DNA from: Sarcomyxa edulis
Lineage: Eukaryota; Basidiomycota; Agaricomycetes; Agaricales; Mycenaceae
Direction: 5' to 3'
Length of the DNA stretch: 64,000 nucleotides
NCBI GenBank assembly: GCA_009761415.1
Contig: QUOL01000033.1
Coordinates: 36,759 to 100,758 of the forward strand
A program made the position numbers and the translations under genes. Within the stretch, counting starts at the first letter, position 1. Every line of letters begins with the position of its first letter. The notes under the pieces were generated by a model. That model saw only the letters and a list, made by a program, of their open reading frames with translations, had not been told where the DNA came from and searched no databases. This document shows positions 27,897-57,500 of this stretch, piece by piece.

Positions 27897-30800
27897 ATGC
27901 CAAATTTTGCAGGGGAAGGAATGGAAGGAGATGCCTTGGGTGATGCCGTATTATCAGGTAAGCTATTCGTGATATACATGCATACCATAGACGCTGATGG
28001 ATGTTGTGAGAAAGCCTCCGAATATACAACCAGCTACTCTACGCTATTGAGCGCACCTCCAGTCAGCAGTACTATCACCGGTATGTAGACAAGATTTTAT
28101 GGAACTGTAAACGTCCACCTAAGTCATGAAACCGTCAGCAGATACCAACCAGGACTTCTATGGGATGCCATTACAAGGCGTTACACCTGTGGCTCCTGAT
28201 CTGTATTCACCCTCATCAGAGTTCCAATGGGATCCCACTGATTTTGCTGATGACACGAAGTCAGTAATAGTGCTGAAAGAAATACTCTGTCCAAACCCTC
28301 CTGCGTCACCACCAGAAGGAGTGTACTATCCCCTTGCTCAGGAATACATACTTGAGCGATGTCGGACACACCGACGCGGCTACATATACACCTCCGATTT
28401 TGACACGTCCCAAAAATCATTCCACAAAAAACAGATTATGGCAATCCGGAACCCTCCGGGCGTTGAGCCTTCTGAGAAAGAGGGAGCACTCGTCATTGAG
28501 CCTATTTCTGGCATGATACAGCAGCCTGCTGGCGTGCCGTTTGTTCAATACATCGATGGGAATAGAAACAAACCCGTAACCATCGGTGTGTTGCATACCC
28601 TGGAGTCGTTGAGCATGTATAAGGAAGGCAAAGATATACGGCGGTGGTCAGAAGAGTTGCGAGAGCTTGTCTGGGGACGGAAGGGTACTGAGCACCAGTC
28701 TGAGATTCGTCCGTTTTATGCTGCAAACTTGAAACAAAATCTTCGTTCCTCTACCTTGTCCACCTCTACTGGATACAGTGGTTCATTCAGTTTAGCTATC
28801 ACCAAGGGCGAAGGAGAAGGCAATGGAGTAGGAATTCCGTCATTGCAATATACCAACCCTGCCGAACAACGACAAATTGCGTCAATACTTCGTCTTTTGC
28901 ACCTTATCTCCCGAGCAGTCCTATCCTGTTCACTCTCAAAGTTTGAGCTAAGCATGATTGATTTCAATCATGAAGATAACAATATCTTTGGCTTTGGGGG
29001 ATTAGATCCCAACAATACTGGGTGTCAGGCGAACGTATCTTCTGGAGGTGGTAAACTATCAGACAAGATTGGAGAGATGCAGGGTCAATGGCATGCTGAT
29101 CGCAATGATTGTCCATACCGATGGACTGTGTTTACTCTGTTTCTACGTCTTCCTCCTGGTATGTTAATTTGTTCTAACATCAGTGAAAACTCAGGACTCA
29201 ATTATTTCCATTACAGGTGCAGATCCAGGAGCTTGGATGAATGGCAGGCATGGCTTATATATTCGGGAACTAGACATATGGGTCTTGTGGTACATTTTCA
29301 AAGGGAACGATTTACACTCGCCCACCAGTCCATATTACACCAAGGAACAGTCACTGGAGTTTCTGCAGTTCTTGGAAATGGCTTGGGAGAAATCAATCGA
29401 ACGGGTTGGATTTGTCAACTACATGACATTTGGTTTAGCTGCCCGAATCTCACCAATGTCTATCTCTCCACCACTTCACTTTTCCAACTTGGGTGAACCT
29501 ATTGTTTTGAAGACCACTCAACAAAATATGACGCAACATTCCAGAGGCATCCTTGGTGATGCGTATGCTTACCACAACCGCATAGGCCGAGAGGCCGTTT
29601 GGGCCTTTCTCAATCTTCTGAAACATGCTGGAATCGAATGGGACGGAGGTACTTCTGAGATATTCGAAAGAAAACTATGGTATAGAAACGAGGCAGGAGA
29701 AAAACAAAATCTCATTGCACCAAAATTCGATATCAGGTCAAACCCAGAACTTGTAAAGAGGAGGCGTGCACAGTGGCAATGGCATGTCACGGTTAGCACA
29801 GAATACCTCATCTTTGTCACAAAAAGTGGCTACGCAATCGAACAAGCAAAGCTCTCTCTGGGAAACAAATATACCAGGCCGTATTCAGCACTAGAAAACC
29901 CCTTGATGATACTAGAAAATCCACCACAAGCTGAGCCTGTTAATGAGGTACAAATTGAAGCAGTGCTGCAGCGTAGATATGTGAACGACAAGGTAAATTG
30001 TTTATTTCTCTTCAAATTCAGATCACTGATTGCCTGTGAGTATAGATACTTTGGACTGTTCGAACCTCTGAACAGGAAGAAAAAACAATGGTAGATGCTG
30101 ATATAGCAACACTACCCGAGTCTCTCCGCAAATTGTTTACACAGTGGATTGTGAAACAGGCTCCAACCGAACCACTACGTAGACTCATGAATGGGCAATC
30201 TAGTAGACTTGCCTATCAACATGGACCATCTCCCGCCTTGGTGAACCATGAATCATCGTTGTCTCACATCTCTTCTACTGACAACAAATCTCTCAATTCG
30301 TCGCTAATGGTAACTTTGGAGCCCGAGTGTCCCCAGACACCATTATTTCTACCCAATTCCAACACACCAACACCCTTTGGCTCACCAATGTCTTTGAGTT
30401 ATGAATTGCCACCTGATTCACCGCTGACTCCATTGGCATCAGATCTGGAAGATGATGCTGACAATGTTCCTGTCGAGGACGATGTTCCTGTCGAGGACGA
30501 TTTCGAGGACGGCGTTCCTGTCGAGGACGATTTCGAGGACGGCGTTCCTATCGAGGACGGTTTCGAGGACGGCGTTCCTATCGAGGACGGTTTCGAGGAC
30601 GGCGTTCCTATCGAGGACGGTTTCGAGGACGGCGTTCCTATCGAGGACGGTTTCGAGGACGGCGTTCCTGTCGAGGACGATTTCGAGGACGGCGTTCCTG
30701 TCGAGGACGATTTCGAGGACGGCGTTCCTGTCGAGGACGGTTTCGAGGACGGCGTTCCTATCGAGGACGGTTTCGAGGACGGCGTTCCTATCGAGGACGG

Positions 30801-33800
30801 TTTCGAGGACGGCGTTCCTGTCGAGGACGGTTTCGAGGACGGCGTTCCTGTCGAGGACGATTTCGAGGACGGCGTTCCTATCAAGGACGGTTTCGAGGAC
30901 GGCGTTCCTATCGAGGACGGTTTCGAGGACGGCGTTCCTGTCGAGGACGATATTCTTGTTGAGGACGATTTCGAGGACGACATTCCTGTCGAGGACAATG
31001 TACCTGGTGGCGACGGTGATCCCCACTATTATAATCTACGGACCAAGCGGAAATTCAATCAGATGGATGAAGACAAGGTGACAGGCATCCATGAAGTACC
31101 TGAGGGCTACTTTGAAGTAGAATCGATCGAAGATATACGGTTTACTGGTGCTGAAGGAACTCCAGAATGGAAGGTCAAATGGAAAGGATATCCAGACTCT
31201 GCAACGTCATGGGAAGGTGTCGCAAATCTACAGTAAGCTACTTGTTCCTTGCAAAAAGAATCTGATCTGATTTTTATGGTAGGAACACTCGGGAGCTGGT
31301 GGAGGAATACAATATGATGCATAACATCTCCCCAACTGTCTTCCCCACAATCGTTTCAACACTTCCCCTTGACGCCGATTATAACGATGACGACGACGAT
31401 GAATCCGTGTCAAGTTGGAAGGACAATCCTGGACCGTCACGTAAAAAGAGGAGAAAAGATGAAGTCTATCAGAAAGCCATTCCTAAGGCCACCACAAAAA
31501 CCCTCAAAGCTTTGGATAAGCTGTTAGACACAGAGACTTTAGAAAGGGAACTGGAGGAACTGAAAGATGGTACCATTAATCTTGGACTGGGCTATGGCTA
31601 CAAACCTCCAGATACTAGTGACATCATCAAAACCATCATCGATACTCAAATCGAAAACAATTGGATCAGCTCCGTTATGGCTACCGTAGGGGGTGTCTTG
31701 ATACAAGATGATGTCCACCAACCAGAATCCTATCGTGCTTTGATCCCCAACTTAGCAATATACCGTGTGCAGAAAGCAACAAGAATGGTCCCACGTCTCT
31801 TTGTACAATCACAACAGCTTCTGATTATCCAACGAGCGGTGCAGATAGAGGCTTGCCGTTCTCTAGTTGCTATTTATGATTGGTTCAACAACAGTGGCCC
31901 CAAACTTGTCAAGGGCTTGATGGATGTTTATCTGGCAGAGGATGGTCAAGCCAGACTCAAGTATCTTTATCCACGATATGCCGATGCTGTCACCCATATT
32001 GTTACCTACGTCAGGGCCTATATCTCTCTGCATGTCAAGGATCCCAAGAAGCTTCCCACAAACTTTATACGAGGTGTTGTTCCATGCGAGAATCTGGAGC
32101 AAAAACAGATAGCTGAAAAAACACTGGAAGACTGGAAACGCATGCCATCTGGTATCTACGGGCTTGTTCATAATCGTACAACAAAGACACCCATCACTCT
32201 CCCAATACCATCACCTCATCAAGGTTCGCACAAATTGACTACTTCGAAGGAATGTCTATATCATGCAAGTACCAAGTGTCTCATGGAGGTACTTTCACGC
32301 CAGTTAGTCATGGAGCCAATGAGAAAAATTGATGCTCTATTCCGGGAGAATTACAATATGTCCAAAGGCAATACAAAAACCGATGATGTCCATATTGAAT
32401 CAAGGTGTCTAGCCCGTGGATTCGTTCTTCATGCACTTTGCAAAGGTACCGGCACCGAAGGCATATTTGCCTCTCCGAATATCATTCCAATTCTTGTTAC
32501 TCCTACCTATCTCATCGTTCATGACACGCATGTCTTTCAAGCTAGACAATTTGTCTCAAAGGTTTTGGGCAACGAAGAGGAAATGTTGGCACCTTTACTT
32601 GAAACCATCCAGGAACGCATCACAGCTGAGAGTGTGGCAGCTGCACACAACCTTGGAGAGTTTATACACCGCCGAATCTTGGAACTCGATGCTGGAAGAT
32701 CAATCAGTGACAATCTCTATTCTACAATCAATGGAGGTGGCTTTGACAGCTTGGTGGCAGCATTTACACAAAGAGCGCCCAAAAATGTACATGCTCGACC
32801 TAAAGTCCGGCAGGAAGCACCTCAAAAGGTGACTTTAGCAATGATCTTGATGGAGCATCAACACTACGTTGGTCTTGGAGTCATTGGTATGATGCTACGG
32901 GATACCTTGAATAAAAGTCGAAATCTGCCTGCCGTTCATCATGCAATGTTGTCAATACTGGAAGGAAAGCGGCCTGCAGGAAATGGAGAGGAGAATCTTG
33001 ACTATATTAATCCAATCCGGGGAGCCAACGAAACAACGCAACTCCTTCTGGCCAAATTTTCCAACTACCATATCCATCTCACTTCTCATCTTGGACTATC
33101 TAATATTCTGGTATGGATGGGTACAGGACAAGGCCATCACACACGAGAATTCATTGGCTTAGGTGAAATGTTTTTCACCAGCTTTGATAGCTGTGTAGCC
33201 AGATTTCAGACAACCTACGATCAAAACCTGGCTCTGATGTCAATGGTTTCTGAAGGACAAGACAATCATATTCTAAAACATCCTTCTTATATTCCAATTG
33301 ACCACATGGGATTTTATGGACAACCCAACTTTTTGCTAGCTGTTGTTCAAAGTCGATCTAACAAAACTTCTGACGTGGATAACAATTCGGACAATCCATT
33401 CAAGCATTCAATTGAGCACAAATTCAGACCTTATTTTGCGCCTGAACTGGAGGAACGATGGAGGACCTTTCTGGGAGATATGGCTGGGAAAAGGGTTGAT
33501 GATTACGATGGAAAACGGCGCACCTGGAAGGACACTCTCGATTTCATTGAAAATCTAGGTGTTGTAGGTTTTGGTTCAGGTCTTACACCATTCCAAACCA
33601 CACACTGTATGGCCATCTTGGGGATTTGTGCTATGGCAACTCCAGAAGAAATAGCAGACTGGATTTCTCTTCACCCAGATCTTGGAGCGCAAACCGGATT
33701 GAAAAGCATGGGCTTTCTCCTGACATCTCAAGCATCAGCAAAAGCGGCATTCCTTATCTTCTATCATCATCTTGACACTCATCTTTCCAAGGACGATAAA

Positions 33801-39933: not shown

Positions 39934-40034
39934 CTCAAATACGCTAACTGCCGACGAACATGTTAAGTTTTGGGCCTCAAATACGCTAAAAACGGACGAA
40001 GATCTGGCCATTTTTTCGCCCTCAAATACGCTAA
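39934..40034 (+). repeat. Three direct copies of CTCAAATACGCTAA
   Basis: Exact 14-nt copies start at 39934, 39976 and 40021 (spacing 42 and 45 nt). Each is followed by a CCGACRAA or similar sequence. They lie 140-240 nt upstream of the start of the minus-strand protease-transposase gene. Promoter elements or subterminal transposase-binding sites are both possible. Confidence 0.85.
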
Positions 40035-40049
40035 TTTCCGACAAACATA

Positions 40050-40660
40050 AGTAGGTGGGAGCTTCCCGGGGCCTTTTGAAAGGTCACTGGTAGTGCAAAG
40101 AACGAGACACGATACCTTTGTCCAATATTCTGCGGCTGGATTGAGTGAGCTTTCCAGTTACCATGATTTCTAGAAGAAGAGTATTGGCGAATCTAAGGGG
40201 CTTTTGCGCAGAAATATGTATGCGTGCTTAAGGGTCGACGAAAGAAAGCAGCTAGAAAGAGTGAGAGATAATGGGCCACATGGGGAAGCACGGAGATTAC
40301 AGCGCTGCAAGCTCAAGTAGCTCGGAAAGGACTGTTCAACCGTTGGAAAGGGTTGTCCGAATCATACGATAAGTGAAAATGGAGACAGAGGGAGATTAGC
40401 AAGGGACGCAAGAAGGTCTTGCCGTGCACTTCATGATGTCTTCATCTTACAACAACCATTCGGTTCGGAAGTCTTGTTTACCTGACACACGGAATCTTGT
40501 ACGATGCGATGCATTGGAAGTAAGTACTCAGTGGAGGTGTTGCGTTAGATTACTCCGACTAGGTAGAGCAAAAAAAATGATGAACAGATGAACAGTGCGA
40601 TGTGGTAAAGAAATGCAGCAATGAAAATACTTTTCGTCGACTCTTCTGTTTCATCGAGTT
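40050..40660. other. Stretch without a supported gene
   Basis: No coding frame of note. The outer edge of the 27.9-39.8 kb gene pair may lie here, but no terminal inverted repeat partner was found near 27.4-27.9 kb. Confidence 0.35.
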
Positions 40661-40670
40661 CGCTCGTCGT

Positions 40671-40909
40671 CTAGAATCTCATACCGCCCATACCATCAGC
40701 CCCTCCAGCTTTCTCCTCTTCTGGCGCGTCGACAACGCAGCACTCGCTGGTCATCAACAAACTCGCAACATCCGTCGCGTCGATGAGAACGGTCCGTACG
40801 ACTTGTCAGAGGATCAACGATATTCATCTTGGTCATACCGACATACTCTCCCTTGCTCACGTCGTATCCCCAAGCGAACTTCTCATCGGTACCGTACGCC
40901 AACAAGAGG
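40671..40909 (-). pseudogene. HSP60 (mitochondrial chaperonin) C-terminal fragment
   Basis: The minus strand reads LAYGTDEKFAWGYDVSKGE then YVGMTKMNIVDPL. After a frame change it reads [19 protein letters not shown], then [15 protein letters not shown] and finally GMGGMRF before a stop. This is the C terminus of a group I chaperonin, including the remains of the GGM-rich tail. The frame break is at IVDPL|VVRT, where Lys is normally found. Only about 80 residues are present, so it is a truncated, frameshifted copy of a housekeeping gene. The first base pairs show no intron. Confidence 0.9.
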
Positions 40910-40991
40910 TATGGCTTTGAGATCCTGCGATCGTAGCAGTAGTATTTGTGGCGGATGCATGATGAGGTGAACTGATAGTATGATCATTTCT

Positions 40992-42300
40992 TTAGTGATC
41001 GGAAGAAGTAATCTCAGTGAGAGTTCCAATAGTACGGATCCTGTTCATAGAAGATGTACCCGCCTCTGTCTGACGCCTGTAGAAGAGATGATCTGGAGTA
41101 AATTGGTTTGGTTGATGCATGTGGGATGACCGCAGGTTCAAAGGAGCAGTGGGAATGGACCTAGGCACATTCGTGTTCAGACCACTATCGTTCGTATCCA
41201 TGATCTGCTCAGAGTCCTCATTCGACAATCGTTCCATGAGCTCGAGACGAGCGTTACGTCGACAAATTTCCGCCGCAATCTCAGATACTAGAGAGTTTGT
41301 CCCTCCCAGACGAGTACCATACAAACGGGATCGGAGACGGTCGGATACGAGGTGTCTGAGCTTGGCCGTCTTGGCGAGAGGGTGCGAGGTACCGGGTGAG
41401 AGCTGGAGGAAGACGATCTCTGTGATGGCTGTGGTTGAGTCATTTAGTCGCGTCGTGCTGGAATCATGGAAAGAAAGTGTATGTGAGAATGTGGTTGAGG
41501 GTATGGTAGGGTCAATTTGTGGACAAAATGGACAGACAGAATGAAAGTGAGTCGGTGAGAGAGAAGTTCGACTGCGGTGTGGCTAAAGGTAGAATATGTG
41601 TTTCCACGGTAAGGTGAATAGTATGATAGGACGTACGATGTGACAACAGCAATTAGATCATGTTCTCTGACAGCCAACCCGATATCAGTGATCCTTGCTC
41701 CGACGTCAATGGAATGCCATTGCGATTCTTTATGACGCGAATACAGGAGCTGAAGCCAGTGTATAGCTGTCGTATACCGACGGTAATATCTCGACCCCTC
41801 TCCGAGCACGTATACACCTGCACTGTGGTCGTATATCCCAGACGTCAGGTGTTGTACGTCGATGGTCTTTGTGAACGCGATCTTGAGGTTCGACCATGCA
41901 TCTTCGTGTTTCTGTAATCGGTCGAGCCGTTCTGCGACGTTCCGAGTCGAGGTGGGGTTGTTTTCGACGCCGTATGTCTGCATGTAGATGATGTATTGGA
42001 GGAGGACAGATGAGTCGATGATCTGGTGGAATAGTCGACACAAGAACGCGGAATCGATGATGCTCCGAGTCAGTGATCGCAAGACGGACACCAAACAGTT
42101 CGCTCTGGATTTGTTTGATGCTTTCACGAGTGTTAACAAGGGCTTCTGCCGAAGATGAAAGACGTGGTAGCGGGCAAGAAATTTTCAGCGCCCGTGCCCA
42201 ACATGGGGGTGTGACATAACGTAGAACTATAATTAGAGGGTGTTGTTCAAGGCAAGATATTTCCCAGAAACGGACGTACATGTTCGATAGGTAACGGCAC
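40992..42300 (-). CDS. F-box-like protein, possibly truncated
   Basis: The minus strand from about 42140 encodes SVLRSLTRSIIDSAFLCRL, HQIIDSSVLLQYIIYMQTYG, NVAERLDRLQKHEDAWSNL, TSGIYDHSAGVYVLGEG and AVREHDLIAVVTS. This order resembles the common basidiomycete family with an F-box at the N terminus and a beta-propeller-like body. An intron (GTACGT at about 41638 to CCAG at about 41463) splices to TRLNDSTTAITEIVFLQLSPGT. The remaining sequence (TNSLVSEIAAEICRRNARL ...) runs to a stop at 40992 and is unlike the family, suggesting a truncated gene fused to unrelated sequence. A frame change near 42100 separates the N-terminal part, which lacks a clear F-box. Confidence 0.5.
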
Positions 42301-42359
42301 ATCACATCGATTCTTTTTTTTTGGGGTTGTACTCGTCCATTCCACATCCTTTGTCCAAC

Positions 42360-43463
42360 ATGGCAGAGTCTTCAGATGCAGCATCGGGTTCCCGCCCCAG
42401 GACTTCTCGCATGACGGTCTCTCGCATGACGGTCTCTCGCCCCAGGACTTCTCGTAGGAAGGATCCAAACGACATCATAGAGACTATCATCTTGTCCAAT
42501 TCTCAGGAGGAGGGTACGCAGGAGACAAAGGTGCCAGCACAGAAGCGACAGCGTCTCAGTTCTACGAAAAGTGATGTTGTGAACACGGATAAGGAAGTAA
42601 AAAACAAGGGGAAAGGCAAGACCAGTGTGGACCCAATAATCGTCATATCCAGTGATGATGAGGTGCGGGCAGCGTTTCTCGTGGCCACTGATGAATCTGA
42701 ACATACTTCTTCAGGATACTAACAAGGAGGGCGAAGCTCACATACGTGAACGACGGGGGCCCAGAGATGAGAAAAGTGCCGCAGAGCACATTGTAAGTAA
42801 CCTTCTTCTTCCGTGTTTCAGTATAATGCTGACATAGGTCGAAAAGAGGAGAACAGAGGCCAATTTGAAGAAGGTAAGACCAGGGTCCAGTGTGGCAACA
42901 TGACCAAAACATGACTCATGGGTTTGTGCTAGGTCCTTGATGCGATAGGCGACATATTCAATTGTTCTATATGCGGCAGGTTGCAATCTTTGTATATGTG
43001 AGTCTTTATGAATTACATTTAGACGCAGGGCTGAGACAGATGTGGGTACAGGATACCTGGGTGTGGACACCTTTTTTGTAAGGTCTGCCTGGAAAAATGG
43101 TTCTCCACATTGCAGGACGCACATGCCCGCAGGAACCGGATCAACGTATGCAGGAGTATCGATGTAATGAGAAGGGTAGTAAGTTCGGGGGGGACTATCA
43201 AAATGGATGAAACGATCGACAACATGATGGAGATGGCGGAAGTTGACGTGGAACTGTACTATACATGTCCAACTTGTCGAGGCGTAGTGTTCAGTGCACC
43301 ATGCAAGGTTGGAAAGATTGGGGCATTGAGAGAGGTGCTACGAGCTGTTGAGGATGATCAAGGGAAAAGGCAAGCATCAGATAACGGGGACGGGGAAGGG
43401 AGAGCATCAGATGATGAGGATGGGGAAGTGAGAGAATCAGATTGGGACAAATTTTTCTTGTAA
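42360..43463 (+). CDS. RING-finger protein, probable E3 ubiquitin ligase
   Basis: Five exons splice in frame: 42360-42662, 42715-42792, 42838-42873, 42933-42997, 43040-43463, giving 301 aa. The N terminus is Arg/Ser-rich, followed by acidic and Lys-rich stretches (VIVISSDDE, KNKGKGK). The RING cluster uses C150, C153, C169, H171, C174, C177, then C237 and C240 (NCSICG ... PGCGHLFCKVCLEKWF ... YYTCPTCRG). The gap between the second and third Cys pairs is longer than usual (59 residues). The C terminus is acidic. RING proteins of this kind transfer ubiquitin, or sometimes SUMO-targeted ubiquitin, in the nucleus. No lesion was seen. The ATG context was chosen because it is the first ATG of the open frame. 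Confidence 0.8.
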
Positions 43464-43464
43464 T

Positions 43465-44660
43465 TGAGACCTTGCTCTGACCACTGTTTTCAACAGTTTG
43501 GTGACCTTCTTTCCCAATGTATGTCCAGTGCAGGTAGTCGACCAAAAAATCCGACTTTTCCTATCAGGTTACATCAGGAAAACCCCCCCGTGCCAATTTT
43601 GTTTGTTTTCTTGAAACTTAGAGCAATATTAATCTCGTAAAATTCATAAAATTAGGAAAAATTCACAAAAACTCGCAACATTGCCCAGGTGCTTCAAAAT
43701 GATAAACTTACCTCTAGACCTCTCGACAATCTTGAGAGTGGGAGGGAGAGGGAGGGAGGGAGGGAGCAAGAGAGCAACGAGGTCAGAGGAGGCGAGCGGT
43801 ATGAGTGGAAGAAAAGAAAGAGAGAAAAAGTCGGCAAAACTGTGTTTGTTTTGTCACGTGCTTGTTTTGTCACGTGCCTGGTTTGTCGCGTTGACAGAGA
43901 CGTGTTCTTTTTCGGTAGCGCGTCCTAGTGTGAACAGAACGTTTGACATGTTAAATCAAACACGTTATGCAAGGAAATAACTTACTGGGTAGCTTGTGAC
44001 TGCAGCCGATGTCTGAAAAACGGATCACATCAGTTTTTGAAAAGATGTGGATAGTTGAAACCGATGGACTCGGATACTTACGCGTCAAGGTGAAAAATGT
44101 TCAGCTATCAAAACAAGGTAATATAAGGGCACATGCTGGCTAGAACATCTTCACTTTTATGATCAAGTAAGACGACCAATCCGAGCTGTGAACTTCGAAC
44201 TAGGCAAGATGTCGTGCAGACTCCAAGAATCGAGATGTTGAATTCTTTCGAACCATGAAAAGAAACGAAAATGTGTGTAGAGAGCTACACATCGAAATTG
44301 CGGCAGAAAAAGAACATGGCAGAACAACTATTTAGAAATCTTAGCGTGGCGAAGAAGCACTAGTACGGAAGAGTGGACAATTGAGTGGATGAAGTGAGGG
44401 GGATACCATGGGGAGTGGGAAGAGTAGTTTTGCCCTGCCAATAATACGCGGCCGTGATCAGATGTTTGAGAGCGCTGAAAATCAGAGGAGTTAAAGGACA
44501 GAAAATACGGAAACATATATGTCTGTATACTCTGTGATGTTGAGGTCGATTTATCTACTAGTACGCAGACTGATAAGGCAGAGCGAGAGCAAGCACAACA
44601 ACCTGCGAGATATACTGGATTAGACTAGTCAATATAAGCGAAGCAGCGTGTAGTAAAAAA
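43465..44660. other. Stretch without a supported gene
   Basis: Contains a polypurine tract (GGGAGGGAGAGGGAGGGAGG type, 43739-43770), a tandem TTGTCACGTGC pair at about 43852-43878, and AT-rich sequence at 43610-43680. No coding frame is supported. Confidence 0.4.
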
Positions 44661-44674
44661 CGAGTGGTGGTCAA

Positions 44675-44780
44675 ACCCCAGGACCGATATGAGTGTCGAT
44701 GTCTTAGAGCACCACAACGAACAGAAGAGTCATCGTTGTGGTGAACGAGGGGGTGGACAGCAGAGTTGACGCCTCCTCGT
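44675..44780 (+). repeat. Hairpin train A (oldest-looking copy, three hairpins)
   Basis: Hairpin 2: arms 44710-44720 and 44733-44743 (CACCACAACGA, perfect) around ACAGAAGAGTCA. Hairpin 3: arms 44745-44755 and 44770-44780 around GACAGCAGAGTTGA. A decayed hairpin 1 (CCCCAGGAC ... TGTCTTAGAG) precedes them. Confidence 0.85.
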
Positions 44781-45258
44781 TTGGAAGACCAAGGAGATTG
44801 GGGTATATGAAATTCAGACAAGACAGAATCTAACTTACCAGGTGTCAGGAATCAGGTAGACAATAATGCGAAAGCGACCATTATTGTTAGTTTGAAACTC
44901 TGCTAAGAGGTGTCAGTACCAAATACAGAGGAAACATAGATCTGCACATACGCGTTGAACCAGATGGTCGGAGGCAGTAACACACCAACGACGACCAAAA
45001 TGTGCGAGAGACCCAGTATGAGAAGGAAAAGAAAAGAGAGTGAGAGACATTCAAATCGACTGTATCCATGAATGTCAGTAAAGCGGCCAAGAAAAGTGTA
45101 CATTACATACCGAGTCAGACTACCATCAAGTCAAGTGTGAAAGCAGCGAGAACTGAGAACGCGAGAAAAAGTGGGGACAAGAGACTGCGAGGAAGAAAGG
45201 GTTAGTACATTTCAAGAAGAAAGAGATGAATGTAGATGAGGAAGGTTTGGTGATCCAG

Positions 45259-45364
45259 CCCCAAGACAGACAGCAGAGTCAATGTCTTGGGGGACCACAA
45301 CGGACAGTAGAGTCAACGTCGTGGTCATCGAGAATGCGGACAGTAGAGTCAACGCTTTCTCGAT
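45259..45364 (+). repeat. Hairpin train B (three abutting hairpins)
   Basis: Arms/cores: 45259-45268 / 45269-45282 / 45283-45292 (CCCCAAGACA arms); 45293-45302 / 45303-45316 / 45317-45326 (GACCACAACG, one mismatch); 45327-45338 / 45339-45352 / 45353-45364 (ATCGAGAATGCG, one mismatch). Cores are GACAGCAGAGTCAA or GACAGTAGAGTCAA. There are no spacer bases between hairpins. Confidence 0.95.
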
Positions 45365-45556
45365 TGGATGACCAGGAGAGGGGGAAAATGATTTGACGCA
45401 GAAAAAAATGGATTGCTTACTTTTTTGTGCATGTGAAAGCAGCGAGAACTGAGAACGCGAGAAAAAGTGGCGACAAGAAACTACGAGGAAGAAAGGGTTA
45501 GTACATTTCAAAAAGAAAAAGAGATGAATGTAGATGAGGAAGGGTTGGTGATCCCA

Positions 45557-45662
45557 CCTCCAGACAGACAGTAGAGTCAATGTCTAGAGAGACCACGACG
45601 GACAGTAGAGTCAATGTCGTGGTCATCGAGAATGCGGACAGTAGAGTCAACGCTTTCTTGAT
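45557..45662 (+). repeat. Hairpin train C (three abutting hairpins)
   Basis: Direct copy of train B, part of a unit of about 300 nt. Cores are at 45567-45580, 45601-45614 and 45637-45650, all GACAGTAGAGTCAA. Arms show a few extra mismatches. Confidence 0.95.
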
Positions 45663-45739
45663 TGGATGACCAGGAGAGGGGGAAGATGATTTGAAGCAGA
45701 AGAAAAAAAGTATTGCTTACTTTTTTGTGCAACATAAAT

Positions 45740-46270
45740 AGGAATGGACTATAAGGCGGCGACGACGAGGACGGCAGCGAACAGGATGAGAACGACGATG
45801 GGAGATGATGGTGATGAGGAAAAGATAAGCTGGTGGCGTTATGGCGGTTCGAAGTTCCGAAGACCTACCTAATTGGGTCGAGGATCTCGAAGTCTATGGG
45901 TGCTGGGATGTGAAGATCAGATAAAATCTAGAAAAAATGGTCAATAATACCTTGGAGTAATATGAATGAAACATACTTGTATTGCATGTGTGGGCATTGT
46001 TGAGGACACAAGAATTGACGCGAGATTTGCAGAACGCGTTGATCATGTGCCAGAAAGTTCGAACTCCGATTATCTCCGCTTCAATGCTCTTGTTTCTGTC
46101 GCCAAGTCTAATCTCACGTCTTCATCACCACCATCACCATTGATCCCTCCCTCATACCCTCCTCCCTTCTCCTCTGCCTCCTCGCTATCCTCCTCGCTCT
46201 CATCCTTGCCATCATTCTTTACATCTCGTCTTTGTTGTAGGATTCGTCCCTCTCCGGCTTCCAAATTGTA
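45740..46270. other. Centre of the inverted array
   Basis: Lies between trains in opposite orientation (B and C to the left; D, E and F to the right). A Ser/Pro-rich frame at 46070-46265 is probably compositional. It may contain the transcription start of the gene at 47123. Confidence 0.35.
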
Positions 46271-46334
46271 CAAAGGTAAGTTTTCTCCCATGTAATGTTT
46301 ATATTTTTCTTTCCCCCTTCCTCCTGGTCTATCC

Positions 46335-46440
46335 AATCGAAGGAACGTTGACTCTCCTGTCCGTTCCTTCGATGACCACGGCGTTGACTCTACTGTCCGC
46401 CGTGGTCCCCCAAGACATTGACTCTGCTGTCTGTCTTGGG
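46335..46440 (-). repeat. Hairpin train D (three abutting perfect hairpins)
   Basis: Inverted relative to trains A-C. Arms/cores: 46335-46346 / 46347-46360 / 46361-46372 (ATCGAAGGAACG); 46373-46382 / 46383-46396 / 46397-46406 (GACCACGGCG); 46407-46416 / 46417-46430 / 46431-46440 (CCCCAAGACA). All arms are perfect. Cores are TTGACTCTNCTGTC. Confidence 0.95.
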
Positions 46441-46643
46441 GCTGGATCACCAACCCTTCCTCATCCACATTCATCTTTTTCCGTTTCAGATGTACTAACC
46501 CTCTCTTTCTCATAGTCTCACTCTCGTTCTTTCCTCGCTTCCCAACTTTTTCGGCTTGCGTTCACCGTTGGTTATACTGTCCTCTTCCTAAAGGTCCGTA
46601 GCCGACAGTTTCTTCCTTCCCTTTCCCCTTCCTGGTCTATCCA

Positions 46644-46749
46644 ATCGAAGGAACGTTGACTCTCCTGTCCGTTCCTTCGATGACCACGGCGTTGACTCTA
46701 CTGTCCGCCGTGGTCCCCCAAGACATTGACTCTGCTGTCTGTCTTGGGG
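46644..46749 (-). repeat. Hairpin train E, duplicate of train D
   Basis: Identical in sequence to train D, 309 nt downstream, inside a duplicated unit that also carries similar GCTTGYGTTCACCGT flanks. Cores are at 46656-46669, 46692-46705 and 46726-46739. Confidence 0.95.
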
Positions 46750-46977
46750 CTGGATCACCAACCCTTCCTCATCCACATTCATCTCTTTCCGTTTCAGATG
46801 GACTAACACTCTGCTTCTTGTAGGTTCTTCTTTCCTCGCTTTTTAATACTTGGTGCTTGCCCCTGGTCTCAACTTCTCGTGCTTGTGTTCACCGTCAGTT
46901 GTATCATCCTCTTGCTCAAGGTACGTAGCCGAGTTCTCTAGTCTTTCCTCCCTCCTTTTTCCTTCCATCGTATATCC

Positions 46978-47048
46978 AATTGAAGGAGCGTTGACTCTAC
47001 TGTCCGCCGTGGTCCCCCAAAACATTGACTCTCTTGTCTGTCTTGGGG
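46978..47048 (-). repeat. Hairpin train F, recombinant with two cores
   Basis: The left arm of the first hairpin type (TTGAAGGAGCG) is joined through one core (46991-47004) to the right arm of the second type (CGCCGTGGTC, 47005-47014). The third type follows (arms 47015-47024 and 47039-47048). One core and two arms have been lost cleanly. Confidence 0.9.
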
Positions 47049-47122
47049 TTGGATCACCAGTCCTTTCCAGTCTAGTTATATGTGCATTCTTCTAACGGTT
47101 CATTTTCTTCTAGGGCCTCATC

Positions 47123-50100
47123 ATGCAGTCCGAGAACTGGTACAACCCCCAACGCCCGACATTTCCAAGGTTTCATCGGCCGGACGAGAAGCGTAAGTCC
47201 TGACTTTGTACTCTCGCATTTGACTGCACCTGAACATGTATTTTTATTCAGGTCATTACAATGCGCTCGATGCAAAAGTCCTAGCTATCAGCCCATGGCT
47301 CTCAGACCCTATCCTGCCAAATTCCATAGTCCGGGAATGGCACATAATCACCTCCCCAAATGCTGAGACGGTCCCCCGCATCTTCTATGGTCCTGCAATT
47401 CTTCAGGCGCGAGCGGACGGCCGCTTTGCACAGTACGAGTTCTCTCGGTGGCCACAATGGTGGACAAGGACGTACCAACATACTTGTATCCTTCCCCTCC
47501 CAACAAAAGATCCTCAACATCGCCTCTTCATGGCATATTGGACTCCTACCCTCGATGATCTTCACCTTGATCAAAACAATGCGTTCCGCTTCACCATCGG
47601 CGTCCTCAGAAAATCGAGATTAGAGCAACTAAAGCCGTTGTATGAGGAGGCCTGTAAGAAGTTTGATGAGTGGCATTCTCATCAGAATCCAAATATCAGC
47701 TATCTTTACCACCCTCACAACGCCATTCTTTTTCTCTGGACTCAACTCACGTACGCACCGATGAGTCTTGCGGAGCTTGTCCTGCAGGTCGCCGAATTTC
47801 AGAGATTGTACCTAGATATTGTCTCTTTCGTGAAGTTTTACACCGTCTATATCCCCAGATTGAAGGAGCAGTTTGACAAAAAGGATTGCCCCCCTGCTGA
47901 GCCTGGGTTGTTAGGCTGCGTCACGAGCGATCCATACGTTGTTGCGAATATGATGAAGATGCGAATTCCTGTATGGCTTTCTCGTCGGAAGCACGAGTTA
48001 CCCCCTCGAATGAACATTAACAAAGTCGTTGACGAGCTTGCGCCCGTTGACATTGTTGGTGCGCACTTCCGGGATGAGGCTGGCAAATTGGCGCCGTTTG
48101 ACATCGTTTACTTCGGTGATGCGACAGAAAGTCTCGGTAAAGCACTTCGCAGGAACGGGCGTAAATATCCTGGCCTTACTCAGCGCGACGACGAGCCTGC
48201 GCCAGCTCGGATGATACCAGTTGGCCCAAGTATTCGAGAGGCTCCCACAAGGCTTGATGGTGACCCCCTTCATTGGGATTCTTTCAGCTATGAACTATGG
48301 AGCGGGGAAGCTAGGCCCAACCAAGGTAACTACGTTACATTACCAATCATTTCTACTGGACACTGACTTTGGGTGTCTTTTTTCATAGTACCCGTACAGC
48401 CTTTGACATTCACCGCGGAGCCACCAACTTGTACTCCTGTGAGACCTGCTGGTTCCAATCCTACTGTCGATGTTGACGGGCCCTATTTCATCGATATGTA
48501 CGATGAAAATGCGGTGGCTGCTCATCCCAGCAAAGTTGGCTCACGCAACCAAGGCCCTTCGCGAGCCGTGTCAAAATCAACGACGGCGCACTCAACGTCG
48601 ACGTCAAGGTCAAGGTCAACCACAATTTCCATGTCCAAGTCTGCAACGGCAACGTCTAGATCGACAAAGGTGTCCAGCGTCTCGAAATCAATGTCCAAGT
48701 CCTACGCTGTCTCCCAGCCTGTTCCAAGCACAACGTCAACTTTCACGGGAACCTCTGCATCGACTTCTACCATTTCAAAAACTACGTCGAACTCAGTTGC
48801 TGTCTCCCAATCTGGAGACACAACGTCTACTCCCACCAACAACTCTTTGCCGGCTGTTACCACCGATAATTCTGACTTGTGTCCTCCCAAAAAGAAGAGG
48901 AAGACGAACAAAGGCAAGGGAAAGGCTGGCGAACCTGGCAGGAATAAGTTTGACGACGTGGTGGATGGTGCGGTGCCCCCTCCTATCCCTCTCTGGGCCT
49001 TAGGACTTTCCAAGGTGAATATGAGACATCGTCCAAGTGCTGAGACTACCCAGATGATGAGAACAACGGGATACCTCTTCCCCGAGTATGGCGTGTTCCT
49101 CACCACTAAGAACCGAACTCGTTTTTTCATCAACTGGCTTTCAGCACGCAGCGCCGTTCTATTCACAATGTGGTCGGTACACTTTGTTCCTCGTGCAGTC
49201 TGCAATCAAGACTGGAGGGCTTTCTTGGGACGATTTCTACACCTTGTGCCCGAGGTTGCCGCTCCCGTCTTGCGACATCTCAAAGCTGCAACCAATGTAT
49301 TGGACGACGAGGACGACGAGGACAACGCTAACGACGCTGACCTTTCTGGCAACGAAGACGCCCCGCCTCCCTCCACCACACGTCGCAAGGTGCCCACCGA
49401 CAACGCTAACGACGACCTTTCTGGCAATGAAGACGCCCCACCTCCCTCCACCACACGTCGCAAGATGCCCACCGACAACACCGACAATGCTGACGTGTCT
49501 GGCAACGAAGATGCCCCCCCTCCCCCTACCACACGTCGCAAGATGCGCAACTCCCAGCGAGTTGCTCATATCAACGAGTTGTTCGGACAGGAAACCACCG
49601 TTCCGCCACAAGTGTCTTGGAATGACACCGTCTTCGATACTTACAACGAGTCTGCCATGCAACAAGCCCTGACTCCTGAAATCGAGGCCGAGATCTTGTG
49701 GGAGTTGTGCGAGTTGAACTTTCGGTTTGAACTCCTTGCATTGGACCGTCAGATGAGGCCTGATTTGTGGAACGAGGACAACGCTGGAACACGCGATCAA
49801 GCTGTCAAAGCCGTCTTTTTTGGTGATACTGGGTACATAGTAGACGGGGTACCGAACAGGAACCGCGGACTGGCGGCCATCCATTGGAAAGAAAGGGCTC
49901 CGTTCCTACAAGCTCTCCGTGATCTCATGGCGGACTGGCCCATGTCAGTAACAACAAGGTCTTTTTTCAATGCCGTTCGACTTCCCTCGCCCGCAGAAAT
50001 GGCCCAACAAAATCGCAGTAAGACGGTCAATGATGTTGAGAGGATCTTGGCAACGGTATATTGCCAGACCTTCTTCAACAAGTTTGGTCGCGCTGCTATC

Positions 50101-50142
50101 TGCCCTCGTCGCGTTCCCCCTCATTTGTCGGAACCAAATTAG
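47123..50142 (+). CDS. Uncharacterised nuclear-type protein, intact three-exon gene
   Basis: Exons 47123-47192, 47252-48325 and 48389-50142 splice in frame to 965 aa. Introns have GTAAGT and GTAACT donors and CAG/TAG acceptors. The first half is a compact, aromatic-rich region (PRIFYGPAILQARADGRFA, FSRWPQWWTRTYQHTC, PTKDPQHRLFMAYWTPT). The middle (about residues 415-545) is Ser/Thr-rich low complexity, ending in a nuclear-localisation-like PKKKRKTNKGKGK near 546. Residues about 698-765 carry three copies of a DLSGNEDAPPPSTTRRK-type repeat. The C-terminal half is again compact (FDTYNESAMQQALTPEIE, WPMSVTTRSFFNAVRLPSP). Proteins of this type are familiar as hypothetical proteins near agaricomycete transposons, but I know no function. 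The gene stands immediately downstream of the inverted hairpin trains. Confidence 0.75.
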
Positions 50143-50343
50143 ATGGACACATGGACTCAGGACAATATATATGCATATGAGCCGTAACTACATAGCTTGC
50201 ACAATTACATACACGAATATTGTGCAAGTTCAAAGTACTTACATCTTTGGTAGCATTTTGTAGTGGTGTCCTTTTGGGGGGTCAGGCCTTGCGTCGAACT
50301 TTTTTTTTCTACAGATACACGATTTTTGGATAGTCAGTACTTC

Positions 50344-50443
50344 GTTGTCGATCTACAGATCGACAACATATCTTGTTAGTTGTCAATTTAGGGATTGACA
50401 ATAATCTGTCTCAGGTGTGCTGTTGACTTATCAGTCAATAGCA
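50344..50443 (+). repeat. Three consecutive small hairpins
   Basis: 50344-50353 with 50358-50367 (GTTGTCGATC, perfect); 50380-50387 with 50394-50401 (TTGTCAAT, perfect); 50418-50428 with 50433-50443 (TGCTGTTGACT, one mismatch). All share a TTG(T)C/GACAA theme. They lie between the gene ending at 50142 and the KDZ start at 50592. Confidence 0.8.
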
Positions 50444-50591
50444 TGCCTTGTAATAATAGAATGGACATCACATGTTGAATGTTCAAAAATAAGATCATTT
50501 ACTTCTCATGATCAGACATAAATACTAAAGTGTGCTGGCACCAACAGGTTTCTTTTCCCCCTTTCTTTCTCCCCCACTCCTGTGCTATAAG

Positions 50592-53500
50592 ATGTCTTTC
50601 CGCACTCCCAATCTGAGACGACGCTTCACAACCTCCACTTCACCTCACAAAATAGACCCCTTTGCTGTGGTTCCTGCTCTAGAACATGGACGGCAGCGTA
50701 TCCAAGGCTTAACGGTGTTTCCCAGGACGGACCTTTATGCTCCAGAGGGTCGGTTTATCCAGCCCGTCACTCGAAGTCCCAGCAGGAGCTCGGAGAACTT
50801 ACTGGACTTTGATGATGAGGCCGGTGAGCCCGAGATAATCAATGCTGCTGCTCCTAAACCACACACAAGTTCCGCGAGCAAAAAAAGACTTAAACAGTGG
50901 AATACATGGAAGAACGAAGTCATTCCAGAGCTTTTACTTCCCTACCTCCGTGTCCTTTCTGAGTCGCAGTCATTGCGTTCCATGGAACGGTGCGAAGCTC
51001 TCTACTGCCAATGTGGCACTACACGCAGGAAGATTTCAGTGACTTGTGTTTATTTCGACAGTGAGTAAAGTAATGGTTGGTCTTTGGTCTGAGGACTGAC
51101 ATAAATGCAGAAATAAAGACTTTAACCATCTGTACATGTGCTCCCGCCCAGCTTCTTCTATCGCGTGGCCTATTTCCTTGTGCTCCGCTCGAGCCATCAC
51201 TTGCCGTCGACATCAACATGCTTGATTTTGTCAATCATCTCTTTGTTTGGACTGCTCCCAATGTTACAGCTTGGAGTGATGCGGTAGAGACCTTTCTGTC
51301 AGACCGTAACTATACTCTACAGGCCAGAGTGAGTCCTTGATCATGTTTATGAAATACCATGTTTGAATTGAGATCATTGTTCAGAATACTCTTTGAAGGA
51401 GATTTGGCAATGTCTTGCTATGGTATTCCTACTTAGGAAACAAAACCGTTAAAATGATGGATAAAAAAATCAACCATGTTCGAGCAACATTGATTGAGGA
51501 CAAAGAGGAACAAGAGGAACAAGAAGACTTGCAGAATGAGAACGAGTCTTGTAAGCTTTACCATTTTCTACATGAAACTTGACTTAGACTGTTTGCAGCT
51601 AATTCTTCCAGTGCACGTGACAATCTCAAAAGACCAACCAAGTACTTGAGGCAGCGGTGCCTACTGTGCTTTGGTGGTGACTTGGTGCATGATCCAAATG
51701 CAATGTATGTGTCATTTTCACCCACAGTGTCTACACAGTTGACGACTTGCTTTCAGCGCTGATGTCATTGTAAGCTCTGATGCTTGTTTCACCCAGTTGA
51801 GACGGAAAACCAGCAAGGGCGGCTATCGTGACCCTCCACTGTATTTCCATTCTGACACGGTTTTTCTCACAGAAGAGGAAGTAAAGGCTATGGAAGCCAA
51901 GGTTTCTGAGCAGAGGCCCTCCCGACCTTCACAGAGGAAGAAATCTGGTAAAGCCAATGCTGATAAGGAAGATGATTATGAACCTTCCATGAAGGTTCCA
52001 ACCTCTGTTCTGGAAGAATGTAACGAATCCTTCACAGCTGCAGATGAAAGAAGGAAGAAGGCCAGCACTCAATTTTTTGCAGACACAGGTGTCATAGCTT
52101 TGCTTTGCAGACATGATCGGGTCTTGTGGTTGGCCAATATGACTTCAGCAGGGGAGAAGCAGCATTATTCTTTGGCTTTGATCCAGAAGCTTTTCGAAAA
52201 CCTACCTTCTGATATGATTGTGGGCTGGCTTTATGACATCGGATGTCAGATACACAGGAGCTGCACAAAGTGGGGTTTTCTGGATGAATATATGGATCGG
52301 ATCACATTTGGAATATCCGTCTTTCATGCGTACGGGCATCAATGGCCCTGCCAATTGATTTATCATCCTCGCAAGTGCAAAGGCTTTGGATGGTCAGATA
52401 GGGAAGGTTGTGAAAGGTTTTGGAGCGCGCTGAAGTTGCTTATCCCATCTTTACGGGTTTCTGGATATCACCACAGACTCTACGTGCTTGATACTCAAGT
52501 GAAGTATCTGGATGGCAAGTCGCTGAACAGTCTTGGTGATTGGCTGAAGCGGAAGTGGGAGACTTGTCAGAAGCGGAAGTTGGCTGCAGAAACAGAGTTT
52601 TGTAACGCCAATACGGACGAGAGGGTTCCAGAGATGATTGGGAGCTTTTGATCAGGGCAGAATGGAAGGCACAGGTCATCGAACAAACCAAGCCTTTGCA
52701 ACGTGAGTATTTTGTATTTTCATGACAGACATGATTTCTTGACGCGTCTTTGACTCAAGGTCAATCGAAAGACAAGGCAGACAAGATTATCGAAGAGATA
52801 ATGACACTGGAAGATTGCCAGAAAGCGTACAAGAAGGAACTGGTGGACATTGAAAAGATGTTGGCTACTGGTGTGTATGAGGATGATATGGATGCTGTGG
52901 AGGCAAGCAGTCAACGGGACGAGGTTCAAGATAGAATCAAGAGTTTAGCCAAGACTCTGAAACGGAAGAGATCGGCACTTGGGGTTACTGGCAAAGCACA
53001 TTTAGCTTCATTGGTTGGAAACCAGTTCCTCAGGTTACACATGAACACACGCGCATTAAAGTCTCGCATTTGTGGCCGTCTCAGACAGAGGAAGTTTGAA
53101 TTGGACCGTCTAGAATGCGCATACCGCAAGACTAGCAATGGTAAGTCTGATTGACTCAAATGACTGTGGTGCATGTCTTGATTGTATTCTGTTCAGAAAA
53201 AAAGCTTCACAGTCACACGGCAAGTCAGGTCAAGAGAAAAAAGCCTGGCATTGTTCAATTGGCTGCAAAGTACAACAAACTGTGTACTGAAATGGCGACT
53301 CTGAAAGCTGGAAAACAAGCACCACGAGGCGCAATCATACCTCCCCAGATCAACCGAGAAAAGCTTTTTGACTTGGATGTTGATGATGATATCTGGCAAG
53401 ACATTGGGTTAGATGAAGCTACAGACAATGCCAATGCTGTTCCGTTGTGGCTTGGCGATGAATATGTTCGACAAGCGATCAAAAGTCTCTTGGAGTTGGA

Positions 53501-54064: not shown

Positions 54065-54253
54065 GAAAGAGGTGTATCTTCCCTGGGAAGATATACATGT
54101 TCCCCGAATAGGGATGGTTGTTCCCCGGGTAGACATATGTCTTCCCTGGGTAAAACATATATCTTCCCAATGGACCAAAATCATAACTGGATAGAGATAG
54201 TTTGTCCCTGGGTAGAGATAGTTTGTCCCTGGGTAGAGTGATGCCTTCCCCGG
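54065..54253 (+). repeat. Array of TTCCCYGGGWAGA-type motifs
   Basis: About eight variants of TTCCC(C/T)GGG(A/T)AGA occur at irregular 20-35 nt spacing, including a tandem of GATAGTTTGTCCCTGGGTA at 54197-54236. The array is interrupted by the Plavaka element. One more copy (TTCCCTGGGAAGA) appears right after it near 61178. Confidence 0.8.
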
Positions 54254-54272
54254 GATGTCGGAAATTTAAAAT

Positions 54273-54527: not shown

Positions 54528-57500
54528 ATGCCTCGCGGGACTGCAGAGTCCAAGATCTGTGAATATTGTAACCAAACTTTTACTGCACAAGGGCTCGGCC
54601 TGTCAGGGCAACACCAATCTATACAAGACCAGCGGGCCACTGAAGCGTCACGAGCGAAAGACGAGAACAGAGAAAGAGGAGGAGAGGAGATACAGAGGGA
54701 AAGAGAGAGGAGAGGGAAGCGATAGGAGATACTACAGGAGTTATATGACTTAGGTTCCCACTAGATTAGCGGTAATCCTGAGAGATTGAACTGAGGATCC
54801 CCAGGGTGCATAGCACCCTTTATATATCTACCTACATTACATGATTGGTAAGCTATAGAATCCTATGGAACATAATGGAACACCGTTAGTAAGAAGATGA
54901 TGCAACTCCGCAGCACCTTGGTAATTGCATCAGTCAGCAGCAGGAATAAAGGTATCCCAAGGAATAACTATAGCCCCCTGATAAGATAAGATAAGATCAA
55001 AGATAAAGTCCAAAATGAGTCGCTTCCTGACACGGCCGGCATAGACAAGCTTGTAAATCCAACTATCGAGAGACGCAAAGGGCCAAAGAGTATGAGAGGA
55101 GATCACAGCAGAAAGAGACTCAACATGGTGTGTTATCTCCTACTGATTCTGTTCACGACATCTGAGTGAAAGGACTTGACTCTGGGGTAGGTGCCTCACA
55201 TGCAGCGGATAGCTCGTCCACCCAAAGGCGCGGTGCAGATGATTCTTCCAGGACACAAGACGAGCCCACCAATGGCGAGTCCATCGACGACGCGTCTCCC
55301 GACAAAGATCTAGGTATGTCGCAATATCATATTGTATGTAAAGCATCCTTATGAGAATGTACTCAAGCTCCCCCGTCTTCCGAACCGTCAACGGAGCCGT
55401 ACATTCCCCAATTGAACGATATCAAAGTTGAATATCACCCGAACAGTCACCGACCTACGAGAATCTTCCCGTTCGAAGAGTACGGTTGCGAAACGAAATT
55501 TTCCCCACCCCCACCCGACAAGGAGCCATGGAGGCCATTTCAATCCCGTCTCGACTTCGAATTTGCGAAGCTAACTCTTGCTGCGGCTCTCAATGATGCC
55601 CAGATCGATACCTTGATCTCAATTTTCCATCGCGCCGCTAGTGGAGAGGAAATTCTGTCGTTCAAAAATCACGCTGCAGTACGCCGGACCTGGGAGGAAG
55701 CCTCAGTCCTCCGGACGCCGGTGAGTAATCTGAGACTCGTTGCATTATTCTGCAGACCCTGATTCTTTCCTTATAGTTCAAGAAGGAACCTATAACTGTT
55801 CCTTATAAAAAGACGGAATACACCTATGATGTCTGGTTTTGCCCATTATGGGACTGGTCATTAGACCTTCTGAGTGACCCACATCTAGCTCCTTATTTCG
55901 TTTGGGGTGCTCAACGAGTCTATAAATACAACAGTACATCATTCATTCGGTTTTTCTCCAAACCTTGGACAGCTAACGCGGTTTGGGATATTCAAGTAAG
56001 TTAATCTTTCTATCAACATGAGCAGATTCACATAATCAAACTCTGTTTTTCAGTCAAGCCTTCCGGAACATGGTATACCGTTCTATTATATCATCTATGC
56101 GGACAAGACAAAATTGTCCTTGTTTGGTACCGCCAAAGGCTATCCGGTCATGGCCCGGTGTGGACCACTTATTGTTGATATCTGTAACGGTAATGGACTT
56201 GGAGGAGGTACCGTCGTTGGATGGATTCCGATTGTACGAGCTTCGTGGAATCGATTATTTGTTCAATTTTAATTCTGAATCCAGGTTGAAGACGACCCCG
56301 ACAAGAAGGGGAAACCAGGCTATATCAACTTCAAACGTGTTGTATGGCATGCCGCCTTCTGGAAACTTCTTGAATCTATTGCGCAACATTCGAAAACTGG
56401 GTTTTGGTTTGAGTGCGGGGACTCAATTAGCCGCCTTTTGTTCCCATTCATTCTGATTCTTTCTGCGGACTACGAAGAGCAGTGAGCTTTACTTTTTCCT
56501 CGGATTCATAGTGCCCTGACCTCCTCCATTCCTATAGATGTGTTATGGCTCTGATTCGTGGCTTTGGTGGTAAAATGCCATGTCCCATATGCCTTGTCGG
56601 ATCTGACGAGCTAATATTGTTCAGACGCAGAGGATTTGTTCAAGCAATATGGTCTTTGCGCCGTCAGTGTCAGTATGACAGTATTTTCTTTGTATGAACT
56701 ACTTTTCTCATTCCTCGATACAGAATGTGTTCTGGCAGATTCAAAATTCCGATCCTTGCAAGACACTCTCTTTCGATTCTCTACATGTTTATGCTGGTGG
56801 TCTTTTTTCGGATCAATTATAGGTATGTCTGCAGGCCTGTGTCAAAAAACTGGGTAGACATGCAGTTGCGAAAGTTGACAAACAGTTTGTTTTCCCTTTT
56901 CATATTTCTTCCCCGTCATTAACTGTCATTACAATAGAATGGATGATATTTCACGGTGGCGGGGGTTGAACCATTTTGAGCATGTCATGAATATCTCTTT
57001 CACCGATGGAACAAAGTACGAGGATATCTTGCGAGTTCGTAGTATTCCGTGAAACTTTTTGTTTGCGTGATTTTAATTTCTTGTATCTAGGTTATAATCT
57101 TTGCGCTTCATAACATCATCACCAAGGATGTAGACTCACATGATTACATATTGCTTCAGTGCCTACAGAGCTACCTGGAACTTTTTATGTATGTTGGACT
57201 GAAGGTTCACACCGCGGAAACACTCGCCACTGGACGAAAAGAACTAGAAAGGTGGTCAAACCTCATAAACGTATATTTCCATAGTACCTTGTCTTTTACA
57301 GTACTGACTTCAGTCCGTATAGAAATATGCAACACTCACGGCATCAGAAAGCGAGAAAAACTGGAACTTCCCCAAGGCCCACAGTCATAAACATGTTTTC
57401 GATGACATCAAAGCCAAAGGTGTCTCTCGTAACATGTCCACCAAAATCAACGAGAAACTTCATGGTCCTCTCAAGGCCTCGTATGCACTGCGTACAAATT

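Follow-up and report, generated by a model that had tools for sequence, protein, structure and literature searches.

Introduction

Among the described systems that come closest to the feature considered here, protein-binding arrays of the MS2/PP7 type consist of several hairpins whose loops are conserved and whose stems are freer. The hairpins of this work lie in a 64,000-nucleotide stretch of the Sarcomyxa edulis genome (the window) and share with those arrays their number, their conserved loops and their freer stems. They differ in being natural, apparently intronic and grouped by threes into a closed junction (here called a clover). The Drosophila P element, a DNA transposon, reportedly has its output set at the splicing of the third intron, where pseudo-splice sites and host proteins are said to act on that one coding intron. 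The likeness would lie in splicing as the step that sets the output of a DNA transposon; here we meet covarying clovers, placed mostly in what appear to be leader introns of two genes.

Zipper stems in introns of Saccharomyces cerevisiae have a linker range of 42-85 nt (PMC12350175), with which the 59-91 nt of the predicted introns here are comparable. The yeast zipper is a plain stem in host genes, in contrast to the three-hairpin junction with like loops that recurs here across several predicted introns of both divergent genes of the transposon. With the KDZ (Kyakuja-Dileera-Zisupton) transposons, the host element shares the PF18758 transposase and the dispersed copies. The word "hairpin" is absent from the main text of two papers of the KDZ literature (PMC12730594 and PMC12810828), and a literature search over titles and abstract openings, taking the top matches for some queries and covering few subscription papers, did not find the feature. 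Intronic structures as such, and KDZ transposons as a family, are already known.

Results and Discussion

Hairpin trains in the window

The window contains 17 hairpins in six trains at 44676-47048, five trains of three and one of two (Table 1), in agreement with the first-pass annotation of this DNA. A hairpin is mostly a 9-12 bp stem enclosing a 14-nt core, GACAGNAGAGTCAA, which in the sense direction reads TTGACTCTNCTGTC; it measures ~34-38 nt in all, and the constant loop across the trains is UUGACUCNNNNGUC. Fourteen matches to the core with at most one mismatch lie at 45269-47038, where 0.09 are expected. The other three hairpins are degenerate and belong to train 1, the leftmost, whose cores have at least two mismatches, whose B and C arms still pair and whose A hairpin is read by eye; this train is excluded from the scoring of intron signals. 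The 17 also include one hybrid hairpin, in train 6. The arm length and the abutting of neighbours within trains had been described correctly before, and the arms are unlike from hairpin to hairpin. Whole trains have been duplicated in tandem as units, and the left trains (1-3) are oriented oppositely to the right trains (4-6), as in two divergent transcripts.

Table 1. Coordinates in the window of the hairpin trains, the introns around them and the neighbouring features
Feature	Position	Strand	Remarks
Train 1, degenerate	44676..44781	-	A 44676-44709, B 44710-44743, C 44744-44781
Predicted intron with train 2	45185..45420	-	GTAAGC ... CTAAC ... GCAG
Train 2, exact cores, abutting	45259..45364	-	A 45259-45292, B 45293-45326, C 45327-45364
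Predicted intron with train 3	45481..45720	-	
Train 3	45557..45662	-	A 45557-45590, B 45591-45624, C 45625-45662
Centre between the divergent train arrays	45721..46275	.	presumed bidirectional promoter and first exons, from position
Predicted intron with train 4	46276..46515	+	GTAAGT ... CTAAC ... ATAG
Train 4	46336..46441	+	C 46336-46373, B 46374-46407, A 46408-46441
Presumed intron with train 5	46594..46823	+	5' site GTCCGT non-consensus, by eye; only 3' signals scored
Train 5, copy of train 4 at 308 bp further on	46644..46749	+	
Predicted intron with train 6, 193 nt	46921..47113	+	right-gene ATG follows at 47123
Train 6, two hairpins	46979..47048	+	hybrid with mismatched arms 46979-47014, then A 47015-47048
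Start of right divergent gene, uncharacterised protein	47123..48324	+	exon 47123-47192, then 47252 onwards; exon borders by eye
Open frame, perhaps another right-gene exon	48373..50142	+	no Pfam match
KDZ transposase open frame	51797..52651	+	PF18758, E 3.1e-60
Transposon right end, approximate	54255	.	similarity of several other copies ends here

One module of three hairpins

How are the hairpins related to one another? Their arms fall into three position classes in a fixed order, A being CCCCAAGACA-like, B ACCACGACG-like and C GAGGGAG-like, and aligned triplets read in the sense orientation give C, then B, then A. The variable arms noted at first do differ between hairpins, but they are not freely variable. 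In each complete train, pairing of TGGT..ATCC with GGAT.ACCA adds an outer stem, and a four-way junction results. Folded as RNA, train 4 with its outer stem gives this junction at -73.1 kcal/mol (z -10.96), and the antisense strand of the train folds almost equally well (z -9.32), as expected of palindromes. Judged from the aligned triplets, the hairpins are one homologous module, in which C, B and A abut and the outer stem would complete a four-way junction, and not independent palindromes.

The window and the stretches L031-L041 together hold 55 core groups, made up of 48 triplets, 3 pairs and 4 single cores. Arms complementary at 6 or more of 8 positions accompany 149 of the 156 cores that have another core within 60 nt (window and L031-L042, near copies included), so that in this genome the core is not one found mostly without complementary flanks; at random window positions the same measure gives 0.6%. 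Core pairs also turned up in 9 viral and 76 prokaryotic stretches, where the measure is reached by only 4 of 214 contig cores, and these pairs are taken as chance. On the C16 copy, L041:3195-3284 and 3546-3643 are two more triplets with the same loop, short arms and spacers between the hairpins, and without clear intron signals.

A constant core between different arms had suggested a tiny palindrome-generating mobile element that copies flanking DNA in inverted form. We find this hardly credible, given the fixed C-B-A order, the arms that are homologous within each class and the matched, compensatory substitutions in them. Exact and sister cores outside the train clusters come to three single sites (C39, C13, C18), one of which, C39:534193, has a fold of z -0.1, and among the core pairs listed genome-wide the two outside clusters look unrelated. 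As to descent, the hairpins do go back to one duplicated ancestor, but their arms have since diverged in matched pairs.

Covariation and conservation

The alignment used for covariation, A1, holds 38 of 42 unique triplets. It leaves out four of the six L041 triplets (3201, 3551, 4681 and 5401), whose arms or spacing differ by eye, and is without the two L042 triplets and the groups of fewer than three cores; its rows are not independent, the trains being duplicated or related and several per element being near copies. Standard pairs fill 93.4% of the 1829 cells, compared with 86.5% after shuffling. Double changes occur in 29 of 49 pairs and in 152 cells, where the shuffles give 13.0 and 41.9 respectively, and none of 500 shuffles reaches the observed pairing and double-change values. 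When the partners are slid against each other, only 34-46% are paired. RNAalifold recovers the three hairpins from A1, where 22 of the 36 pairs carry double changes, and does not draw the outer stem. This stem is paired in 87.5% of its cells and has double changes in 4 of 8 pairs; it is less well supported because each of these changes occurs in one single sequence. In 33 of the 38 rows hairpin C has no pair at position 2, where A-A is the usual combination, and the GAC/GUC pairs inside the loop are invariant, so they carry no covariation signal. From this pattern of substitutions we regard it as well supported that the folded shape is preserved by selection on pairing.

Identity is compared over 1186 of 1225 train pairs, after dropping the 39 pairs with an upstream identity of at least 70%. 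The mean is 0.75 for the train, 0.53 for the downstream flank and 0.48 for the next exon, with shuffled sequence at 0.47-0.48; the upstream value of 0.52 is lowered by the drop, and the fair contrast is that with the downstream and exon values only. Within the hairpins of diverged pairs, loop identity is 0.88 and arm identity 0.69, so that the loop sequence is conserved above the stem sequence as in a protein-binding array, and the loop is kept rather as sequence, the stems as pairing. The loop parts TTGACTC and GTC are invariant in the 38 rows while the stems vary, and inner loop positions differ within one element. In the C16 stretch all 18 triplet loops read TTGACTCT[TC]ATGTC, unlike other copies, and the 12 loops found on C4 read as on C16; the loops have changed in concert.

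These values also bear on precursors of small RNAs hosted in introns, which would likewise appear as stable hairpins in transposon introns. The usual Dicer substrates are longer than hairpins of ~34-38 nt. By that size limit, the present hairpins with their 9-12 bp arms are too short; the loops are conserved above the stems, and an Rfam scan of window 40000-52000 gave no family at the trains. Such an origin is very improbable. The sole Rfam match, at 50024-50090, lies away from the trains, is weak (E 1.6, 20.2 bits against a gathering score of 60) and was ignored.

Position in predicted introns

In the sense direction, a 5' splice site on one side and a branch point with 3' splice site on the other flank 37 of 51 distinct trains; in the antisense direction this holds for 0 of 51. 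Taken singly, the 5' site is present in 42 and the branch point with 3' site in 45 of the 51 in sense, compared with 18 and 2 in antisense. Fourteen of the 51 are without one or both signal groups as defined, and the short-arm trains 3201 and 3551 of L041 have no clear intron. The predicted introns (n=44, with a slightly wider list of 5' sites and identical copies counted repeatedly) measure 193-245 nt, and the only two with a length of 193 nt are those around two-core trains. In the diverged C16 copy (L041) one train lies inside a predicted coding intron of 231 nt. The frame there is open when this intron and three ordinary introns are removed, while retention of the train intron gives stops. 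As far as sequence predictions go, a place of the trains in introns of two back-to-back transposon genes is well supported. A structured RNA, one of the readings first offered, gains support from the covariation, from the intron signals in sense against none in antisense, and from the L041 frame that opens on removal of the train intron.

Beside the clover, a linker of 59-91 nt remains in all 36 unique triplet introns of the window and L031-L040 (stem end approximated), and in 29 of the 36 it falls, by the predicted splice signals, within the 42-85 nt of the yeast zipper stems. Since these lengths fit zipper-stem geometry, one may think of pure intron compaction, where the clover only brings the splice signals together and the like loops come from homogenisation of copies, with no trans factor; the tandem duplication of trains as units tells that some homogenisation occurs. 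A plain zipper, however, requires neither like loops nor three hairpins, TTGACTC and GTC stay invariant beside stems that vary, and the inner loop positions that differ within one element indicate that homogenisation is incomplete. Compaction as the whole explanation seems to us rather unlikely.

The next point is whether RNA or DNA is the working form. G-U would be expected to be tolerated over A-C on the sense strand if the pre-mRNA is the selected form. Events on the tree number 31 for G-U and 17 for A-C in the three hairpins (p 0.06), and 37 and 26 in the whole structure including the outer stem (p 0.21), an asymmetry that leans towards RNA over DNA and is only suggestive. Intronic place and orientation are, as we read them, stronger arguments for RNA than the wobble, though the trains share descent. 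The wobble counts are compatible with a DNA-level array as well, one of palindromes or cruciforms around a bidirectional promoter to which the transposase or some regulator of the transposon would bind; a DNA-binding array was part of the alternative named in the first-pass annotation. The arrays do lie inverted on the two sides of the divergent centre, DNA palindromes are capable of extrusion, and both strands fold well. Against this stand the location of the sites between splice signals and in one orientation to them, the train in a coding intron, the internal position ~7 kb from the right end, and the varying arm sequence, which is odd for the recognition of duplex DNA. A DNA-level array is accordingly given a small probability, and we think it quite improbable.

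The two divergent genes

The main exon of the right gene has nine genome matches including itself, the one on C16 at 50% identity. Among ~5.8 billion public proteins its domain finds four relatives, or five with an alignment query, all metagenome-derived; the predicted structure of the domain is poor (mean pLDDT 48) and was set aside. Matches of the left gene occur at several train clusters, none of them on the contig of the window. The frames of both genes that were tested gave no Pfam match over the cut-off. To the left of the window trains, similarity to the left part of L033/L035 is confined to 44257-44504 (71%), so the copy in the window seems not to be complete there.

Genome distribution and the KDZ transposon

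The genome (35.6 Mb, 40 contigs, with genes that have fungal-type splice signals) contains the exact core 95 times and its reversed control once. The sister core GACATNAGAGTCAA occurs 32 times (control 0), 30 of them on C4 and C16 and 2 as single sites. TTGACN6GTC units paired at 10-40 nt number 109, and the reversed pattern gives 0. Introners would have intron-making copies in many unrelated genes, whereas among the places listed for these pairs two fall outside the transposon clusters, and both look unrelated.

The trains form 13 clusters: three on C21, two each on C4, C28 and C40, and one each on C12, C16, C27 and C34. With the ten strongest KDZ-transposase matches of the genome considered, 9 of the 13 clusters lie within 10 kb of such a match and 9 of the ten matches lie within 10 kb of a cluster; the tenth, C28:2955, sits less than 3 kb from the start of its contig. 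The other four clusters (C21:31k, C28:47k and the two on C4) have no match nearby among these ten and adjoin relatives of the right or left divergent gene. We take it as well supported by these positions that the trains are nearly confined to one KDZ transposon clade in this genome. Within the element they are internal, ~7 kb from the right end near 54255; its left end and TIRs were searched for in the stretches analysed and not located. Pairs of hairpins with similar loops but dissimilar arms were also sought in 10-kb stretches upstream of three further KDZ copies, and none turned up; the scan is not highly sensitive, as it marks just 2 hairpin pairs in L031, a stretch with 7 trains.

The lone core C39:534193 (L038:4694-4707) was considered as a host copy of the module and set aside. 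It is exact and has 5 complementary arm bases, its fold is no better than that of shuffles, and with 13 fixed letters chance alone would give about one exact match (our own arithmetic); it is probably chance. The frame downstream of it resembles what we take to be a PWI-domain splicing factor.

Some further repeats were observed. C4:184999-200235 holds two C16-like copies, inverted, ~10 kb apart and with two trains each. Short tandem repeats (22 and 21 bp) lie at window 54121-54238, immediately within the KDZ element's right end. A ~432-bp repeat at window ~54600-55032, with at least 31 further genome matches, many paired at 5.7 kb spacing, looks like the LTR of a young retrotransposon. A 30-bp tandem repeat occupies window 30473-30949 (15.9 copies, 96% match).

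Proposed explanation

On balance we favour a joint explanation, in which a KDZ-superfamily DNA transposon carries the trains as its cis-acting RNA module, and a loop-reading factor and a splicing gate go with them. Both the function of the clovers and a factor that binds their loops are inferred from the patterns described above. The loops would be displayed, three per intron, to a sequence-specific factor encoded by the transposon or by the host; such a factor is suggested because the loops keep their sequence while the stems keep only pairing, and because a plain zipper needs no like loops. A stable structure retained in a leader should hinder scanning ribosomes. Retained in the leader, the clover would hinder scanning, and in a coding intron it would bring stops, so that splicing would gate the expression of both genes. 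The clover probably helps to control the splicing of both divergent genes.

One may go further, tentatively, and picture an element with its own splicing-based control, where a factor encoded or captured by the transposon reads the UUGACUCNNNNGUC loops in the leader introns of both genes, a single signal permits or silences the element as a whole, and factor and loop evolve jointly. The common switch of all loops in the C16/C4 lineage would speak for such co-evolution; this fuller version we hold as possible, with less confidence than the joint explanation. As a passing thought, UUGAC of the loop with the pyrimidines is branch-point-like and might be a decoy 3' splice signal.

Implications

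If the joint explanation is true, a fungal DNA transposon has a conserved structured RNA, clear from its covariation and located in introns. The clovers suggest self-regulation of a cut-and-paste element by way of splicing. Their natural variants, numerous and alike in the loop but not in the stems, offer material for finding the factor, and if loop and factor co-evolve between subfamilies, the pair may find use as an orthogonal RNA tag.
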